Virus record (IMG/VR): IMGVR_UViG_3300044612_000246
Location: 1-36,900 of that record
Source: a virus
Direction: 5' to 3' (one strand)
Length of the DNA: 36,900 nucleotides
Every line of letters begins with the position of its first letter. The stretch's first letter is position 1. A program made the translations under genes and the position numbers. Of this stretch, positions 6,026 to 36,900 are shown piece after piece. The notes beneath the pieces were generated by a model. That model was not told where the DNA came from. It was given only the letters and a program-made list of their open reading frames with translations, and did no database searches.

Positions 6026-6739
6026 ATGAGCACCGGTTCATCTTTCGGATATCAGCAGCCTTCCTACGGTGGCATGGGCGGAATGGGGGGGTATAACCCA
6101 TTCGGTGGCATGGGTTACGGCTCGTCGATGATGGGCGGCTATGGCCAGCCAATGGGCGGCGGCTACGGCTCCATGTACGGCAGCACCTACAGCAACCCGT
6201 ATGCGAGCAGCTACGGCAGCACCTATAACCCGTTTGGCTCATCGTCTTACGGCATGTCATACGATCCGTATATGTCGATGGGATTCGGCGGCGGATACCA
6301 GCAGCCGAGTTCTTATAACCCATTCTCTGGTGGCGGCTTCGGCACCACCTTCGGCAACATGGGCGGATATAACCAGATGGGCGGCTACGGTCAGGTTGGT
6401 CTAGGCTACCTGCCTCCTCCGCAGCCGACGATTAATGACACGGTCGCGAACCAGTTCATGCAGCAATACTATGGCGGTGCCTTTGGTCTTGGCGCGCAGC
6501 CGCAGCCGCGTCGCCAGCGCCCACGCAATCCATTCCGCCGTGAGCAGCCTTTTGTGCAGCCTGCGGTTATGGACATGTCATCGCAAAGCACTGCGCAGCC
6601 TGTCAGCAGTCCGGTCGGCGTCTCGCAGTCTGTTGTCAATCCGATCCAGTACGACACGGCTGCGCTGCCGACATCATTCTTCTCGCCGGGCGCGTTCGAC
6701 AGATCGCTCTTGGATGATCTGAATTACATGCGGTTCTAA
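6026..6739 (+). CDS. Gly/Tyr/Met-rich low-complexity virion-module protein
   Basis: The 237-aa protein has a first half almost entirely of Gly, Tyr, Ser, Met, Asn, Pro and Phe in short reiterated units such as YNPFGG, MGGYG and YGSTY. A basic PRRQRPRNPFRR patch follows, then a more ordinary tail ending LLDDLNYMRF. No enzyme motif is visible. The composition resembles prion-like, phase-separating domains. Placement directly after portal and a 1-bp overlap with the next gene suggest co-expression with head proteins. Function is unknown. Confidence 0.85.
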   Translation: MSTGSSFGYQQPSYGGMGGMGGYNPFGGMGYGSSMMGGYGQPMGGGYGSMYGSTYSNPYASSYGSTYNPFGSSSYGMSYDPYMSMGFGGGYQQPSSYNPFSGGGFGTTFGNMGGYNQMGGYGQVGLGYLPPPQPTINDTVANQFMQQYYGGAFGLGAQPQPRRQRPRNPFRREQPFVQPAVMDMSSQSTAQPVSSPVGVSQSVVNPIQYDTAALPTSFFSPGAFDRSLLDDLNYMRF

Positions 6740-7173
6740 TGGCTCTGGAGGTTCAACGTGTCCCTGAAGGCAGAATTCTTGAAGCTCTATCGTGCCTGCG
6801 CGGCTACCTGCACCAGTCTATGGAATGGGCTGAAGGCCGCGTGCAAGTCGATGACATCGCGGCTCTCGCGCTGGCTCCACAGTCGCAACTGTGGGTGGTG
6901 ATCGATAACAGCTTCGGCGTGCTGAACGGGTATCTGCTGACAGAGATTAAGCAGTACCCGAGAAAGAAGATGTTTGTTGTGCATTACTGCGTGATGGAAC
7001 CGCACATCAAGGAAAGCGTCGAAGAGCAGATGCACAAGACGATGGAGCAGTTTGCTCGAGACACCGGATGTTTTGGCGTGGAATTCTTCGGCCGGCCCGG
7101 CTGGAAGAAGCACGCCAAAAAGTTTGGATACAAAACGCAGACCGTAGTCTACGAGAAGCATTTCTATGGATGA
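6739..7173 (+). CDS. GNAT-fold-like GRPGW protein, copy A
   Basis: The 144-aa protein looks like a small alpha/beta acyltransferase-type fold, with the C-terminal block FFGRPGWKKHAKKFGY followed by a strand TVVYEKHF. Proteins with this motif recur beside phage structural genes. A homologue lies at 20794-21171 in this genome, sharing GRPGW, the preceding WAR/FAR helix and the closing VVxEK strand. Acetyltransferase activity is not shown because no clear acetyl-CoA loop (Q/RxxGxG/A) is visible. The ATG overlaps the previous stop (TAATG). Confidence 0.75.
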   Translation: MALEVQRVPEGRILEALSCLRGYLHQSMEWAEGRVQVDDIAALALAPQSQLWVVIDNSFGVLNGYLLTEIKQYPRKKMFVVHYCVMEPHIKESVEEQMHKTMEQFARDTGCFGVEFFGRPGWKKHAKKFGYKTQTVVYEKHFYG

Positions 7174-19321: not shown

Positions 19322-20797
19322 ATGCTTTTACCAATCAACCTGCCGCCGGGTGTTTACAAGAATGGCACCGACTATCAGGCCAAGGGTCGATGGTTTGACT
19401 CGTCTTTGGTGCGCTGGTACGAGGGCACGATTCGCCCTGTCGGCGGCTGGCGCAAGCGATCCAATAATACGATCAGCGGCTTGTGCCGTGGCGTACTATC
19501 GTGGCGCGATAACAGCAACGACCGCTGGATCGCGCTCGGTACGCACACTGGCCTTTATGTGATGACAGAGGGCGGCACGGTCGCCGATATCACTCCGGTA
19601 GGCTTCACCACCGGCCGCGCTGATGCCGACTATAACAACGGTTATGGCGGCGCCACCTACGGCAATTTCGCCTATGGTGTCGCGCGTCCTGACGCAGGCT
19701 CTATCGACCCGGCTACGACGTGGACGATGGACACATGGGGTCAGTACCTCATTGCCTGCTCCAACGACGACGGCAAGCTGCTCGAGTGGCAGCTCAACAC
19801 CGGCACCGATGCCGCGGCCCTTGCCAATGCGCCTATCGACAACAAGGCGGTCATGGTGACCGAGGAGCGATTCGTATTCGCCCTTGGTGCTGGCGGCGTC
19901 GGCAGAAAGGTGCAGTGGTGCGATCAGGAGGATAATACCCTCTGGACGCCGGCTATCACCAATCAGGCGGGTGACTTCGAGCTTGAGACGACCGGCACCC
20001 TGATGGCGGGTAAGCGCCTGCGTGGCGTCAACCTGCTGTTTACCGACGTGGACGTCCACACGGCCAACTACGTCGGGCCGCCGTTCGTCTACGGCTTTGA
20101 GCGTATTGCCTCCGGTTGCGGCCTGATTGGGCCACAGGCGGTCGCTGCCGTGGAGTCGGTCGCCTTCTGGATGTCTCCGGCCGGGTTCTTCATCTACGAC
20201 GGCTTTGTTAAGCCCATCAGTTGCGATGTGCTCGACTATGTCTATTCCAACCTGAACGATTCCCAGAAGTCCAAGGTCTATGCCGTGGCCAATAACCAGT
20301 ACGGCGAGGTCTGGTGGTTCTACCCGAGCGCGAGCAATCTGGAGATTGACTCGTATGTGTCCTACAATTATAGGGAGAACCACTGGGCAGTAGGGTCTTT
20401 GGCCAGAACCGCTGGCACCGACCGTGGCGTCTTCAGCTACCCGCTCATGGTATCGGCCGATGGCTACGTCTACGAGCATGAGGTTGGTCTGCAATACGAT
20501 GGTGCGAGTCCATACGCCGAAACAGGGCCATTCGAGATTGGCAACGGCGACCGCACGATGATGGCGAGGCAGCTCATCCCAGATGAGAAGTCTCTCGGAT
20601 CTGTCTCCGTACAATTCAAGACCAAACTGACGCCGGAAGGGTCAGAGTCCACCAAGAGCTACACGATCAACGGCGCGTATACCAACGTGCGCTTCTCCGG
20701 TCGCCAGGCCGCGATGCGCATCACGGGTGCGGCGCCTAATACCGATTGGCGCGTCGGCACGATGCGCCTTGATGTGGTGGAGAGCGGACGACGATGA
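19322..20797 (+). CDS. Tail / packaged-DNA stabilisation protein (P22 gp10-like)
   Basis: ATG 19322 follows AAGGAG by 5 nt and gives a 491-aa protein. LPINLPPGVYKNGTDYQAKG with RWFDSSLVRWYEGTIRPVGG is the standard opening of this podoviral family. Many repeated aromatic beta blades (WGQYLIACSNDDGKL; GEVWWFYPSAS) suggest a beta-propeller-like body. It plugs the connector after packaging and carries the tail needle or fibres. Confidence 0.88.
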   Translation: MLLPINLPPGVYKNGTDYQAKGRWFDSSLVRWYEGTIRPVGGWRKRSNNTISGLCRGVLSWRDNSNDRWIALGTHTGLYVMTEGGTVADITPVGFTTGRADADYNNGYGGATYGNFAYGVARPDAGSIDPATTWTMDTWGQYLIACSNDDGKLLEWQLNTGTDAAALANAPIDNKAVMVTEERFVFALGAGGVGRKVQWCDQEDNTLWTPAITNQAGDFELETTGTLMAGKRLRGVNLLFTDVDVHTANYVGPPFVYGFERIASGCGLIGPQAVAAVESVAFWMSPAGFFIYDGFVKPISCDVLDYVYSNLNDSQKSKVYAVANNQYGEVWWFYPSASNLEIDSYVSYNYRENHWAVGSLARTAGTDRGVFSYPLMVSADGYVYEHEVGLQYDGASPYAETGPFEIGNGDRTMMARQLIPDEKSLGSVSVQFKTKLTPEGSESTKSYTINGAYTNVRFSGRQAAMRITGAAPNTDWRVGTMRLDVVESGRR

Positions 20798-21171
20798 TGG
20801 ATGAGCAGCAGGAGCTGGCGGATCTGGTCTCGCCCTTTCGCGAGCTGATCGAGCGTGCGCTTCAAGAGAACTACGGGCAGCTCAACTATCACGACGTCTT
20901 AGAAGGTATTCAGGAAGGAGAGTATCAATTCTGGTCTGCGGCCAACTCTTGCGTGGTGACGACGATTGACGTCTTCCCGCGCATGAAGCAACTGACCGTG
21001 ATCATCGGCGCTGGCGATCTTCAAGAAATTGACGACGTCATTCGCCCTATCGTTGAGGAATGGGCGCGAAGCATTCAATGCGACGCGATGATCATCATGG
21101 GGCGCCCCGGCTGGCAGAAGGCGCTTGAGGGCTACAAACGCACCGCAGTGGTGCTCGAGAAAAGACTATGA
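20794..21171 (+). CDS. GNAT-fold-like GRPGW protein, copy B
   Basis: The 125-aa protein overlaps both neighbours. The C-terminal half (EEWARSIQCDAMIIMGRPGW then YKRTAVVLEKRL) aligns with copy A at 6739-7173. The N-terminal halves share an FW/LWxxxxNS strand. It lacks a visible acetyl-CoA loop. Two diverged paralogues in one small phage, one after the portal and one after the tail stabiliser, suggest two related structural or modifying partners. Confidence 0.75.
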   Translation: MMDEQQELADLVSPFRELIERALQENYGQLNYHDVLEGIQEGEYQFWSAANSCVVTTIDVFPRMKQLTVIIGAGDLQEIDDVIRPIVEEWARSIQCDAMIIMGRPGWQKALEGYKRTAVVLEKRL

Positions 21172-29366: not shown

Positions 29367-29503
29367 TACAGCACCAGCATCGCGGTCTTGATCGCGACTC
29401 CTATGATTAGGCCGCCAATAGCAGCGCCAACGAGCGCCATGCCCATAACAAATAGCATGGCGCCAGCAATCAATAAAGTATCGTTCCAGTCGAACTTTTT
29501 CAT
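29366..29503 (-). CDS. Micro-protein with one or two TM segments (45 aa)
   Basis: ATG at 29503-29501 overlaps the nuclease stop (ATGA) and TAA overlaps the DUF3310 start. MKKFDWNDTLLIAGAMLFVM is followed by an Ala/Gly/Ile-rich segment to residue 38. It is an early membrane peptide of unknown function. Possible roles include superinfection exclusion or membrane anchoring. Confidence 0.7.
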   Translation of the reverse strand: MKKFDWNDTLLIAGAMLFVMGMALVGAAIGGLIIGVAIKTAMLVL

Positions 29504-30207
29504 GCCGCCCTCTTCTTGAGTTTCTCGTTCAGGTCATACAGCGAACGCAGGTTGATGAACGCCGGCCAGGCATCATCGTCGAGCGACGGGTAGAAGTGGT
29601 GGCCGAAGTCACCATTCTCTTTGCTGAAGCGCAGCAAGTGATAACCGCCATCGATCTTGGTGCCGGTGCACTCCTCATAAGCCTTCGCATAGGCCACCAA
29701 CTGGATCAGGTACTCAGGGTACACGCCGCCCGATGTCTTAAAGTCACCGAGCACGATCTTGCCGTTGAGCCTGCCGATGAAGTCCAGCGTGCCACCGTAG
29801 CGGTACGTCTCCGACAGCACCGGCACCTCGCAGTCTATGATCTCGAGCTGCGTGCCCTTGCACCAGAACTCAAAGGCAGAGTAGGCGCTGACCACCTGCG
29901 CGCGAAACGCAGCCGGGTCTCGCGTCTCTGCCTTCTCCATCGTCTTCTCGAGGTGCTGGTGCGGATCACCGCCCTTGACGAATACCTCGCACATCTCATG
30001 CACGCAGGTGCCAATCGCAAGCGCATCGTTGGCATCGTACAAACCGGCCGGGGCTTCCATGCCCTGCCCCTCCAGCACGCCGTGTGCGCGGCCAGTCTTA
30101 TACGCCCAGTTGATCAATGCACCGGGGTCTTTGATCTTTAGGATTGTGGTGACAGACGGCACTTTCGTGCCGTCCGCCAGTTTATAACCGCCCTTCTGAG
30201 TAGCCAT
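29500..30207 (-). CDS. RecB/Cas4-like PD-(D/E)XK exonuclease
   Basis: The 235-aa protein has His70 in GTCVHEM, Asp142 in GGTLDFIG, Asp155-Phe-Lys157 in VLGDFKTSG and Gln169...Tyr173 (QLVAY). This is the set of residues in RecB/AddB/Cas4-type nucleases. It likely degrades one strand of linear DNA for recombination or host DNA turnover. The SSB-like protein next to it is the natural partner. ATG 30207 overlaps the SSB-like stop. Confidence 0.88.
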   Translation of the reverse strand: MATQKGGYKLADGTKVPSVTTILKIKDPGALINWAYKTGRAHGVLEGQGMEAPAGLYDANDALAIGTCVHEMCEVFVKGGDPHQHLEKTMEKAETRDPAAFRAQVVSAYSAFEFWCKGTQLEIIDCEVPVLSETYRYGGTLDFIGRLNGKIVLGDFKTSGGVYPEYLIQLVAYAKAYEECTGTKIDGGYHLLRFSKENGDFGHHFYPSLDDDAWPAFINLRSLYDLNEKLKKRAA

Positions 30208-30882: not shown

Positions 30883-30996
30883 TCACCAGTAATCGACGCC
30901 GCTCCTTTTGCTGCGCCAGTTTGGCGGGGGAACCTGCCGCCATTCCAATTGTGCATCTCGGCGCAGTTTGCGCACAAGATCAAATATCCATTTCAC
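30883..30996 (-). CDS. Micro-protein, basic (37 aa)
   Basis: GTG at 30996-30994 overlaps the upstream TGA (GTGA), giving VKWIFDLVRKLRRDAQLEWR, then QVPPPNWRSKRSGVDYW and TGA at 30885-30883. It fills the gap before the SSB-like gene and continues the coupled-start pattern of the operon. Function is unknown, and it could be a chance frame. Confidence 0.5.
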   Translation of the reverse strand: MKWIFDLVRKLRRDAQLEWRQVPPPNWRSKRSGVDYW

Positions 30997-31556
30997 GACT
31001 GCAGCTCATCCTCTGCCGAGAACCACGTTGATTGGCGGCGCAGGAATGTCGGCCAGCTCGCATCCTTGTTGCAGAACGAACGATCTTCGATCAGCACATG
31101 GTTGGTCGGCTGCGCCGTGAATCGATCATTCTCCAACTGCAACACATAGAACTCTTTGCTTTGCTCCGGCTCCGCGCTGAACGCATCACCGATAGGCGCA
31201 ATCGTGAAGAGGTACATGCCGCGGTGCTCGGCGCGACTCTGTAGCCGCACCCGCGCATTCATGCTGGCAAGGAATGGATACTCGAGCACGCTGAACTGGT
31301 AGCCGTAGCAATCCCATGTCTGCGCGTCTGCCGGCGTCCACGGCTCGTCTGCCTCTTTGCTGGCCGCGAGCTGGTGCAGGCCGACGTTGCGGTACACCGC
31401 GCCAGATTCCAGCATGACGTGACAGCCGAGCGCGCGGCCGGGGAATGACGTGAGGCCGAACCACACGGCGCGCAGCCAATCGTGTTCGCCGCAGGCATTG
31501 GGTTGCACCCAGACATATTTGTGGGCCGGCAACGGGCCAGAGTGTGTGTACATCAT
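30993..31556 (-). CDS. Early hypothetical protein
   Basis: ATG 31556 (ATGA with the upstream micro-protein stop) gives 187 aa. The N-terminus (YTHSGPLPAHKYVWVQPNAC) and middle are rich in Trp, His and Tyr and predicted mixed alpha/beta. No family is recognised and no catalytic motif is evident. It lies between micro-proteins in the early operon, so host takeover is a possible role. Confidence 0.75.
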   Translation of the reverse strand: MMYTHSGPLPAHKYVWVQPNACGEHDWLRAVWFGLTSFPGRALGCHVMLESGAVYRNVGLHQLAASKEADEPWTPADAQTWDCYGYQFSVLEYPFLASMNARVRLQSRAEHRGMYLFTIAPIGDAFSAEPEQSKEFYVLQLENDRFTAQPTNHVLIEDRSFCNKDASWPTFLRRQSTWFSAEDELQS

Positions 31557-31888: not shown

Positions 31889-32176
31889 TTACGCCGCCAC
31901 CTCGTAAATGCCGATGACTTCGGTTTTGCTGTCATAAGCGTATTGTTGCTTTGCAGCATTACGAGCAGCGCGCTCTGAGGTGTGATATGTCACAGCAAAT
32001 CCGCGATCTTTAATCCAACGAGCGTCAACGCCCGAACCGCTTTTCTCGCCAGATGATGAGAATTTGTCGTACACCGACTTTGCTCTGTCGGACTTACGCA
32101 CGACAGCGTGGGTGTAATCGCTTTTCGTGGTGCGGGTAAACTCACCAAACGGGGTCGCTACCTTAATCGTTTTCAT
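31889..32176 (-). CDS. First gene of leftward early operon
   Basis: The 95-aa protein starts at ATG 32176 behind a strong AAGGAG. It contains beta-prone FGEFTRTTKSDYTHAVVRKS and a helical SERAARNAAKQQYAY. I know no family. As the first product of the leftward promoter it probably acts very early, for example on host functions. Confidence 0.75.
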   Translation of the reverse strand: MKTIKVATPFGEFTRTTKSDYTHAVVRKSDRAKSVYDKFSSSGEKSGSGVDARWIKDRGFAVTYHTSERAARNAAKQQYAYDSKTEVIGIYEVAA

Positions 32177-32226
32177 GTCAGCTCCTTCTATCGCTTCTGG
32201 CCAAGCACCGCGCCGGCCATGTGTGA

Positions 32227-32255
32227 ATCCTAGACAGTCTGAAAAAACAATACAA
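32227..32255 (-). promoter_or_regulatory. Candidate leftward early promoter
   Basis: On the minus strand TTGTAT (32255-32250) and TAGGAT (32232-32227) are 17 bp apart, with the start of transcription expected about 45 bp before ATG 32176. The hexamers are only moderate matches to sigma70 (3/6 and 4/6). Operator 1 overlaps the -35, so a bound regulator would block it. Confidence 0.5.
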
Positions 32256-32267
32256 GCACTTTTTGTG
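32251..32267. promoter_or_regulatory. Operator 1 (TACAA-N7-TTGTG)
   Basis: The 17-bp site TACAAGCACTTTTTGTG contains ACAA-N7-TTGT inverted arms. Identical outer bases occur in operator 2 at 32296-32312, 45 bp away. It overlaps the -35 of the leftward promoter and is a likely binding site of the adjacent Cro-like regulator. Confidence 0.55.
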
Positions 32268-32279
32268 TAAATAATCCGC

Positions 32280-32308
32280 TTGACGGCATATTGACTACAA
32301 ACTAGGCT
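32280..32308 (+). promoter_or_regulatory. Candidate rightward early promoter
   Basis: TTGACG (32280-32285) is a 5/6 -35, with a 17-bp spacer to TAGGCT (32303-32308). The -10 is covered by operator 2. Initiation would fall at or just before the regulator start codon at 32317, giving a leaderless or very short leader, which fits the lack of a ribosome site there. Confidence 0.5.
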
Positions 32309-32312
32309 TGTG
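32296..32312. promoter_or_regulatory. Operator 2 (TACAA-N7-TTGTG)
   Basis: The 17-bp site TACAAACTAGGCTTGTG has the same TACAA and TTGTG ends and the same 7-bp spacing as operator 1. It overlaps the rightward -10 and ends 5 bp before the regulator ATG, as expected for autorepression. Confidence 0.55.
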
Positions 32313-32316
32313 GGTT

Positions 32317-32526
32317 ATGAAAAAGCAACCACCGGAAACTATCGCCCTGCTCCACGCCGTGGACATACTGGGCGGACAAACGGCCACCGCAAAGAGGCTT
32401 GGCGTAAGCCAGCAGGCGGTGCAGTATTGGATCAGACGTGGCAGGGTGCCTGCCCTGAAGGCTATTCCGCTCGAAGCCGCAAGCGGAGTCTCTAGGAATA
32501 AACTGCGGCCGGACTTGTACCCATGA
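32317..32526 (+). CDS. Cro/YdaS-like helix-turn-helix regulator
   Basis: The 69-aa protein has a helix-turn-helix at about residues 20-42 (GQTATAKRLGVSQQAVQYWI) followed by RRGRVPALKA and an ending NKLRPDLYP, the standard pattern of YdaS/Cro-type phage repressors. It sits at the head of the rightward operon, divergent from the leftward early operon, with two matching palindromes between. With no integrase present it more likely times early expression than maintains lysogeny. Confidence 0.88.
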   Translation: MKKQPPETIALLHAVDILGGQTATAKRLGVSQQAVQYWIRRGRVPALKAIPLEAASGVSRNKLRPDLYP

Positions 32527-34574
32527 AACCAGAACTGACCGCGATCGTGCCGGTCGAGAAGATCCTCGATCTGGCCAAGAAATACCCCGTATTCCCATGC
32601 AGGAGGAACGATGAAAAAGACGCAGAAGGGCGAACGCTCAAAGCCAAAAGCCCACTTACCAAAAACGGATTCAAAGACGCCACGCAAGACGAAGCCCAGA
32701 TTCGTCGATTCTGGGCCAGTCACCCTGACGCACTCGTTGGGGTTCCAACCGGCAGCCGCACCAGTCTCGCCGTCATCGACTTCGATACTCGGTCGGCTGA
32801 CGCAATGGCTCAAGAGTGGCTGGCAGAGAATCAAGCCGCTCTAACTGGTACGCGAGTCCACCAGACCGGCGGCGGTAGCGGCGGCCGGCACTACATCTTC
32901 AGCCTGCCGCACGGTGTCAAGATCCGCGGCGGCGTGTCCGTCACGCTCGGTAAGGTTAAGCGGCAAGGCCTGGACATCCGCGCCGAGGGCGGATACATCA
33001 TCTGGTGGCCGCTGCACTACGGCCAAGGCGGGCCGCTGAATGACATCCGCTCGCTACCCGCGGGGTTGATCGACGAGCGGCGCATGGATCTCGAGCTGCC
33101 GGCAGAGGTGGCGGCCAAAATGCCAGCGAAGCCCGGCACCAGTCAGGACTTCCAGCGAGAGCTGCCGCGCATTACTGAGGCGCTGGCCTACATCGACCCT
33201 AGCCCGTACGACGCGTGGCTCATGGTCGGCATGGCGCTGCACCATGCCAGCGGCGGCGCTGACGATGGCCTTGAGCTGTGGGATGCGTGGGCGAGCGGCG
33301 GCATCACCGGCAGCCTGCCGGATAATTACGCCGGGCGCGCCGATATCGAGTACCGCTGGCAGAGCTTCCATCTGGATCGCGGCAAGGGCGTGACGCTCGG
33401 CAGTCTGTTCAATGCGGCCAAGGGCGGCGGTTGGGTGTCGGTGCCAGAGGCGGTGCGCTTAGGGCCGCCGAAGCGCGAGGAACCGCAGGTGTCCTACGAC
33501 GATGTGCCCGAGGCGCAAGGCATGATGCGGGTGTTAGAGCCTGAAGTACCTGCGCTAAACGTAACAAACGAAACAGCGTCGCCCGTTCGACGCCGTCTCA
33601 CGCTGAGGCCCATCGGCGAGATCGTGAGCGAGCGGCGCGAGGCGACGTGGTTGATCCATAACGTCATCGAGGCCAATGTGCTGGCCGTGCTTGCAGGGCC
33701 GCGCGCCAGCTTTAAGTCGTTCATCGCACTCGACTGGGCCATGAAGATCGCCTGCGCAGGGAACGCGGTGGTGGTGCTGTCTGGCGAAGGCGCTGGCCTA
33801 GGCCGTCGCGCCGAGGCGTGGATGCAGCAGCACGGCCAAGGCCAAGAGCTGGAGGATCTGCAACTGCTGGCGCTTGAGTCGGTGGCCAACCTGAACGCTG
33901 AGGAGGAGATGGCAGGGCTTCAACAGGCCATTGAGGAGGCCGGCATTCGCCCGGCGCTGGTGATCGTCGATACCTTCAGCAAGTTCTCGGCAGGGCTTGA
34001 TGAGAACAGCAACCAAGAGGTGGCCGAGTATCTCTCCAAGCTCACGGTCGGTATCCGCGAGCGGTACTGCTCCACGGTGCTGCTGGTGGCGCACAGCGGC
34101 CACGGCGATGCCAAGCGGCCGAGAGGCGCCAGCGCGCTCATGGCCAACCCGGATGCCGAGTACATCGTCGAGCGGCCGGATGCGCAGGCGATGGTGGTGA
34201 CGGTCACCCGCGAGCGGTTCAAGGATACGGCCAGTATGCAGCCGCTTGCCTTCGAGGCGGTCGAGGTTGACCTTGGCCGGGTGGACAAGTACGGCGAGGC
34301 GGTCAAGTCGCTGGTGATGCGGGAGACGAATGCTCCGACCAAGGCGGCCGCGGTTCACTCGCCCCAAGGCAAGGCGCAGCGGACGATCCTGTTTGCGCTC
34401 AGGGAGCGCCAGAAGAAGTCCGAGACGCCGCTCGTTTGGACGGTCGAGGAGATCCGCCAGATCGGTCGCGAGTGTGGGGTGCCGCGGCAGTCTGTCCACG
34501 ATGCGGTCGAAAAGTTGATGCTGTCACCCTTCCTGAGGGCCACTGTAGGTGGCTCTATGCTGGGTGAACCGTGA
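32523..34574 (+). CDS. Primase-polymerase / RepA-like helicase
   Basis: The 683-aa protein has an N-terminal bifunctional primase-polymerase domain with D86-x-D88 (AVIDFDT), the GGRHYIF histidine motif and EGGYIIWWP. A PriCT-like helical domain follows (about 215-290). A RecA-fold ATPase has a Walker A-like AGPRASFKSF near residue 390 and Walker B LVIVDTFSKF near 480. The C-terminus looks like a winged helix. It would prime DNA and unwind it with host polymerase III, as no phage polymerase is present. The ATG overlaps the regulator stop. Confidence 0.92.
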   Translation: MKPELTAIVPVEKILDLAKKYPVFPCRRNDEKDAEGRTLKAKSPLTKNGFKDATQDEAQIRRFWASHPDALVGVPTGSRTSLAVIDFDTRSADAMAQEWLAENQAALTGTRVHQTGGGSGGRHYIFSLPHGVKIRGGVSVTLGKVKRQGLDIRAEGGYIIWWPLHYGQGGPLNDIRSLPAGLIDERRMDLELPAEVAAKMPAKPGTSQDFQRELPRITEALAYIDPSPYDAWLMVGMALHHASGGADDGLELWDAWASGGITGSLPDNYAGRADIEYRWQSFHLDRGKGVTLGSLFNAAKGGGWVSVPEAVRLGPPKREEPQVSYDDVPEAQGMMRVLEPEVPALNVTNETASPVRRRLTLRPIGEIVSERREATWLIHNVIEANVLAVLAGPRASFKSFIALDWAMKIACAGNAVVVLSGEGAGLGRRAEAWMQQHGQGQELEDLQLLALESVANLNAEEEMAGLQQAIEEAGIRPALVIVDTFSKFSAGLDENSNQEVAEYLSKLTVGIRERYCSTVLLVAHSGHGDAKRPRGASALMANPDAEYIVERPDAQAMVVTVTRERFKDTASMQPLAFEAVEVDLGRVDKYGEAVKSLVMRETNAPTKAAAVHSPQGKAQRTILFALRERQKKSETPLVWTVEEIRQIGRECGVPRQSVHDAVEKLMLSPFLRATVGGSMLGEP

Positions 34575-36773: not shown

Positions 36774-36900
36774 ATTATCAACGGGTTCTGATCGGAGTTC
36801 GTATAATACCCATTATGTTAAATGGTGGATAACCTGTGGATAACACCGATCCTCCTGTTGATAACCGCGTAAATGAGAACGATTCGCATTTACCCCCCCC
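36774..36900. repeat. Terminal direct repeat, right copy
   Basis: Exact second copy of bases 1-127. On the circle the DnaA boxes, TATAAT and palindrome it contains lie about 75-190 bp downstream of the small terminase stop codon and upstream of the large terminase. It should be counted once. Confidence 0.95.
36871..36891. promoter_or_regulatory. Fur-box-like palindrome, junction copy of site 1
   Basis: Same site as 98-118, seen again because of the terminal overlap. Measured from here, sites 1 and 2 are 198 bp apart on the circle. Confidence 0.45.

Follow-up and report, generated by a model that had tools for sequence, protein, structure and literature searches.

Lambda Cro turns down early genes. 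In phage 434, repressor and Cro each carry two adjacent Gln residues in the recognition helix and use the half-site ACAA, within 14-bp operators of the form ACAA-N6-TTGT. Cro proteins are well known, as are rules linking helix and half-site (PMC4488713) and the diversification of repressors and their sites in temperate phages (PMC6550527), to the extent covered by the available text of these sources. Hall, LeFevre and Cordes (2005, as cited in PMC4488713) correlated Cro helix residues with half-site bases, and in Cluster A mycobacteriophages repressor and DNA sites have diversified into immunity types (available text of PMC6550527). Swapping of repressor/operator specificity is usually explained by immunity between temperate phages. 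YdaS has been re-interpreted as a Cro from its genetic context (PMC5917428), and the YdaS of CP-933P was described as a Cro analogue whose footprints span a divergent promoter pair, one of them its own (available part of PMC8630535).

Here we describe a related arrangement in the window, the whole 36,900-nucleotide stretch that was analysed. Its 69-aa regulator shares the 434 combination of an adjacent Gln pair and an ACAA half-site, whereas its operators are ACAA-N7-TTGT, 15 bp and odd-centred. Profile, all-helical fold and size are common to Xfaso 1 Cro (3bd1), P22 Cro, N15 Cro and YdaS, whose genes likewise come first in the rightward early operon. In related named phages a larger repressor gene lies opposite the Cro gene (Ab31), or the regulator starts where an S24-like gene stops (Mae-JY29), whereas a leftward early operon occupies that place here.

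Like CP-933P YdaS, the regulator is of the Cro type and is associated, here by site position, with its own and a divergent promoter (PMC8630535, available part). In CP-933P, YdaS and PaaR2 compete for overlapping sites, which gives bistability, and it is paaR2 whose mRNA lacks a leader; the present locus has one regulator and two separate dyads, and the mRNA predicted to be leaderless is the Cro gene's own. The rules of Hall et al. were drawn across lambdoid phages (as reported in PMC4488713), whereas we find repeated swaps within one phage group in which no lysogeny genes could be detected. Cluster A phages are temperate with dispersed stoperators (as described in PMC6550527); the present locus has a Cro and two operators. 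No earlier example of a single Cro whose specificity is swapped among phages with no detectable lysogeny genes came up in a literature search that covered few subscription journals. The locus is, with good confidence, read as a CI-less Cro feedback module on both early promoters, carried as a swappable specificity cassette.

The regulator, its twin operators and the early promoters

The features of the locus are as follows.

29500-30207, minus strand: exonuclease of the leftward early operon, PHROG 298
31889-32176, minus strand: opening gene of the leftward early operon; its 95-aa product matches no Pfam or PHROG family; swapped in several pairs of relatives
32179-32225, minus strand: conserved leader of the leftward transcript, with a hairpin (32219-32198) at the predicted 5' end, followed by AGAAGCGATAGAAGGAG
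32227-32232, minus strand: -10 of the leftward promoter PL, TAGGAT, 17 bp from TTGTAT; predicted transcription start near 32220
32250-32255, minus strand: -35 of PL, TTGTAT, assigned from sequence; 17 bp to a -10 in 20/21 same-class loci
32251-32267, no strand: left operator OL, TACAAGCACTTTTTGTG; conserved core 32252-32266, outer arm also the leftward -35
32280-32285, plus strand: -35 of the rightward promoter PR, TTGACG, 17 bp before TAGGCT
32296-32312, no strand: right operator OR, TACAAACTAGGCTTGTG; core 32297-32311, rightward -10 inside
32303-32308, plus strand: -10 of PR, TAGGCT, within OR; regulator ATG 8 nt downstream
32317-32526, plus strand: Cro/YdaS-type regulator, 69 aa; HTH at residues 21-41, recognition helix at residues 32-41
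32523-34574, plus strand: primase-helicase (Prim-Pol, PriCT_2, AAA_25), with a 4-nt overlap with the regulator stop

The regulator matches PF15943 (YdaS_toxin, 'Bacterial toxin YdaS') at 58.2 bits (cut-off 30, 7.2e-16) and PF14549 (P22_Cro) at 33.4 bits (cut-off 30.2, 3.9e-8), and falls into PHROG 35, transcriptional repressor. A phmmer search matched it to 3bd1 (Xfaso1 Cro, 4.3e-7) and 2a63 ('Regulatory protein cro', 6.6e-4). The AlphaFold model is all-helical, with five helices and a pLDDT of 92.9; its best PDB match is again Xfaso1 Cro, 3bd1 (TM 0.81-0.84, rmsd 0.8-0.9 Å), and the fold also matches the phage 434 structures 2r63 and 2cro. The recognition-helix stretch SQQAVQYW corresponds to S31-Q32-Q33-A34-V35-Q36-Y37-W38. 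In an alignment of 19 sequences the helix residues vary and the flanks are largely conserved. Profile, all-helical fold and the position of the conserved sites, at the regulator's own early promoter and the facing one, all place the protein with Cro/YdaS.

Two operators were identified between the leftward gene and the regulator. The exact pattern TACAA-N7-TTGTG occurs only at OL and OR, in the window and in the whole record, 45 bp apart start-to-start; the reversed control pattern gave 0 matches. A pattern allowing up to two mismatches gave 21 matches in the window against 17.3 expected by chance, and was dropped in favour of the exact sites alone because its count was at chance level. In relatives the constant core is the 15-bp ACAA-N7-TTGT, with the outer T and G variable. 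When 2048 gapped dyads (256 arms × 8 gaps) were scanned without supervision, ACAA-N7-TTGT ranked first in same-helix relatives, with two sites in each of 20/20 loci, and no other top-ranked dyad occurred twice in any of these loci. There is thus one dyad per promoter and two in all, as against the several operators per promoter of a lambda-type switch. The distance between operators is 44-45 bp in relatives with the QQ helix and ranges from 34 to 62 in those with KPQ, which argues against a fixed cooperative arrangement; helical phasing of OL and OR was rejected on the same grounds.

A generic consensus promoter/terminator scan returned 0 promoter sites and no sigma-70 match, missing both PL and PR, and the two promoters are therefore supported by the conservation of their spacing in relatives. 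Among 21 distinct upstream sequences of the same class, the rightward promoter fits in 21/21 and the leftward in 20/21; in the background, a -10-like hexamer lies at the PL distance from CAA triplets in 114/2325 cases (4.9%). Over all classes the leftward promoter fits in 65/86 loci, a locus without a matched operator being counted as a miss; its form fails in 13/28 KPQ loci, and the strict form of the rightward promoter is present in just 9/29 RPQ and 3/7 APA loci. In the relatives, the left operator's outer CAA, read on the other strand, supplies the TTG of the PL -35, so one sequence does both jobs. The distance from the PR -10 to the regulator ATG is 8 nt in 19/21 same-class loci and 6 nt in 2/21, from which a leaderless or nearly leaderless regulator mRNA is predicted. 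The sequence-only reading had claimed twin TACAA-N7-TTGTG sites, one over a leftward -35 and the other over a rightward -10, beside a Cro/YdaS-like regulator. The sites are real, exact and unique in the window, their placing is supported by position and by conserved promoter spacing, and the regulator by profiles above cut-off and an all-helical Cro fold.

The 47-nt leader, at the predicted 5' end of the leftward early mRNA, is conserved. Over 31 distinct sequences, 93.4% of hairpin cells pair, 17 cells change on both sides, and 2 of the 7 pairs covary. Rfam gave no match near the locus, the leader included, at E up to 1; no second strong copy of the leader is present in the window, and a tRNA search found none.

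Primase follows the regulator directly, touching or overlapping, in 134/145 loci. The other 11/145, some of which are the same contig (L123/L078, L170/L171/L060/L062, L058, L046, L110/L055, L054), carry an extra gene between the two, named by eye as PAPS-reductase-type (~255-260 aa) or nuclease-like (150-170 aa). The leftward operon also encodes DUF3310 and, at 30996-31556 (minus strand), a PHROG 3704 protein (labelled ferredoxin). Elsewhere, two acetyltransferase-like look-alikes of ~125-145 aa (by eye) lie in the virion gene block at 6739-7173 and 20794-21171.

Recognition helix and operator arms change together

Relatives were fetched with both the regulator and the primase as queries, and fall into four helix classes: [ST]QQ, KPQ, RPQ and APA. 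Among 60 distinct regulators, the classes are best separated by two positions at the recognition helix, residues 31 and 37. The ACAA pattern is a clean test of covariation because it was fixed beforehand, in the sequence-only reading. In the first set, which may hold slightly overlapping loci, two ACAA-N7-TTGT sites are present in 21/21 [ST]QQ loci versus 0/48 others, and the pattern occurs 0 times in 421,954 bp beyond the intergenic stretch (again with slight overlap possible). In the enlarged and re-collapsed set, 20/20 distinct [ST]QQ loci have two sites and 0/65 others have any. Arms that were not conserved with the regulator had been named beforehand as an outcome that would refute the early reading, and this result goes in favour of that reading. 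At the level of whole records, two sites are found in 7/8 QQ records and three in 1/8, with none in the 16 other records (0/16).

The remaining classes show their own arms: KPQ pairs with (T)CAAG-N5-CTTG(A), RPQ with ACAACC-type arms and APA with AAC-N5-GTTAA. These three patterns were written after the first set had been seen, and their counts there are therefore partly circular. In 20 new loci used as a check, KPQ regulators have at least one site in 10/10 cases (two in 7), APA two sites in 4/4 and RPQ at least one in 5/6. The blind 2048-dyad scan made as its first choice ACAA-N7 for QQ (20/20), CAAG-N5 for KPQ (27/27), TACA-N9 for RPQ (21/26) and TAAC-N5 for APA (5/6). In the RPQ class the right site makes a poor dyad, and the pattern is missing in 4/23 loci; only one clear operator site is present in four loci (L045, L046, L048 and L058). 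In all four classes the dyad has a single base pair at its centre, as one would predict if the dimer geometry were constant and just its fingertips differed.

In independent pairs on the primase tree, the arms follow the helix in 9/9 QQ, 17/17 KPQ and 15/15 RPQ comparisons; L054, L062 and L088, with short upstream sequence, were left out, and the RPQ pattern had been widened by GCAACC-N3-AGTTGT after L058-type loci were seen. Natural recombinants separate the helix from the C-terminal part of the protein: L071 and L073 carry the QQ helix and ACAA operators, and their C-terminal part is like that of other classes, with a mean identity of 0.78-0.83 to these versus 0.60-0.68 to QQ.

Exchange of a specificity cassette between close relatives

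The regulator, both operators and both promoter cores are swapped as a unit of ~320 bp between near-identical genomes.

32197-32520, no strand: exchangeable specificity cassette, approximate limits, from ~-120 to ~+200 of the regulator ATG (L064/L071, L096/L098)

On a primase tree of 73 loci, in which L145, L147 and L165 sit on a long branch and are still counted, helix class changes at least 28 times, against a least possible 3 and 34.9 for shuffled labels. An earlier tree (26 changes of 61) was not used: six rows filled only 36% of columns, with a very long branch, as from a wrong frame or an extra gene picked up. Forty-five pairs that differ in helix class have at least 95% primase identity, and 14 have at least 98%.

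DNA identity was profiled for ten pairs plus the window with L037 and with L038. In L064/L071 and L096/L098, identity is 86-100% in the near left flank up to ~-120, 33-73% across the cassette, and 85-100% again from ~+180; these are the two profiled pairs in which identity resumes immediately next to the cassette to the left and to the right. In L082/L084 identity is 91-93% along the 180 bp that precede the cassette and recovers beyond it, with unaligned sequence further left. In most other profiled pairs the first leftward gene is swapped too, with identity returning beyond it in several. L065/L075 are without a left flank, L066/L078 have an inserted gene on the right, and window/L038 is divergent throughout the left side. 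Assembly may have attached an allele to the wrong flank, yet both alleles between the same flanks would exist all the same. In one metagenome, 3300044641, QQ (L019), RPQ (L059) and KPQ (L091) were found together (by eye, one example).

The first gene of the leftward operon forms a second variable slot, swapped in the near-identical L017/L040, L067/L077 and L091/L092. The leftward leader stays in place between the two exchanged regions.

Regulator and sites thus move as one between related genomes, in the manner of an immunity cassette. Since the arms must match the helix, exchange would work just for the whole unit.

A probable feedback module without detectable lysogeny genes

The record ends in an exact 127-bp direct repeat (1-127 and 36774-36900), and a 127-bp terminal repeat is also present in 4/10 other long records tested, so that five records look like complete circular assemblies. 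Profile searches in which controls matched, and which detect known families such that a repressor or integrase of a new type could escape, found Phage_integrase PF00589, Resolvase PF00239, ParA-type AAA_31 PF13614 and the S24 repressor domain PF00717 (Peptidase_S24) each in 0/24 records. HTH_3 matches at one place each in 18/24 records, and in the window this is the regulator itself. A primase scan of 84,980 prokaryotic genomes revealed no close prophage and five distant matches only, the best at 46% identity over about half the primase; that match was considered as a hidden prophage (L196) and rejected, inspection by eye showing no YdaS-like frame upstream of its primase. Among named phages, no primase match covered 80% of the query. 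The early statement that the phage shows no integrase is thus in agreement with the profiles, whereas its term 'switch' was too strong. The hallmarks of a lambda-type switch, a CI-type (S24) repressor and an integrase or other means of maintenance, had no profile match, and with one regulator and no detectable opposing repressor, two-promoter negative feedback fits better than a two-state switch.

On this reading of the locus, which draws on the sites, promoter geometry, Cro fold, helix-arm covariation, cassette exchange and lack of integrase, S24 and ParA profiles, the regulator probably binds both sites and represses both promoters. As the first gene product of the rightward (replication) operon, it would probably be translated from a leaderless mRNA. 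Its accumulating dimer would bind OR, holding the -10 of its own PR, and also OL, over the -35 of PL, the leftward (recombination) promoter. Both early operons would be turned down as regulator accumulates, limiting early expression, as YdaS of CP-933P is described to do at two promoters (PMC8630535, available part). The helix would set the arms, with [ST]QQ reading ACAA, KPQ TCAAG, RPQ ACAACC and APA (C/T)AAC, and relatives trade the cassette through recombination, as lambdoid phages do with their immunity regions.

The joint movement of regulator and operators suggests more than timing, namely diversification of the heteroimmunity kind. We tentatively suggest, as a plausible though not the probable outcome, heteroimmunity without lysogeny: a Cro-only immunity cassette of ~320 bp, in which co-infection drives the exchange and diversification of specificity as an escape from silencing. 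Selection for new specificities would arise because the regulator of a co-infecting or resident phage would otherwise silence the newcomer's early promoters, and we infer that escape from another phage's regulator in the same cell is the simplest reason for many specificities.

A pure early timer, a use that the sequence-only reading had put forward in place of lysogeny, is a serious possibility, if one we would put somewhat short of even: the loop would just shut off early genes, as lambda Cro does, and cassette exchange would reflect the neutral linkage of inseparable neighbours. In the window the operators lie at these two promoters only, and likewise in the other QQ records with one extra match in one of them. 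Neighbouring slots are likewise mosaic, so the cassette is not alone in being exchanged and neutral mosaicism is possible. Neutrality, however, leaves unexplained the four coexisting classes with altered DNA-contacting residues, as in metagenome 3300044641.

It is unlikely that an integrase-less phage, maintained in a plasmid-like state or by a host recombinase, relies on this regulator as its only lysogeny-type repressor, with OL and OR silencing a prophage and ordinary heteroimmunity behind the swapping. Single-repressor control with diversifying specificity is typical of temperate phages (Cluster A, in the available text of PMC6550527), the operator positions are compatible, and relatives of the regulator occur in temperate phages. 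Against this, integrase, resolvase and ParA profiles are missing from 24/24 records, five of them complete, the genome scan found no close relative, and the protein is of the small Cro type that lies opposite a larger repressor in Ab31 and beside the S24-like gene in Mae-JY29.

Quite improbable is a rightward-to-leftward relay in which the regulator represses PR but activates PL. The centre of OL lies near -39 of PL, from where an activator might act too, much like known activators that overlap the -35; yet OL covers nearly all of the -35 hexamer, which is where a repressor would be expected to sit, and this placing is common in the other classes. Finally, a YdaS toxin or toxin-antitoxin component with autoregulatory operators, as the Pfam name of its stronger profile would have it, is very improbable, given that no partner gene is present, that primase is directly next in nearly all loci, and that YdaS was re-read as Cro from genetic context (PMC5917428) and later footprinting (PMC8630535), as far as the available text of both goes.

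For the feedback module with its swappable cassette, the number of changes in helix class around a lone Cro (at least 28 over 73 loci) suggests that early repressors matter in within-cell phage competition, even without prophages. With four classes of operator and naturally recombined helices on a single scaffold, the Cro recognition code becomes directly testable. If heteroimmunity without lysogeny holds true, this phage group would be a natural library of the Cro helix-to-DNA code.
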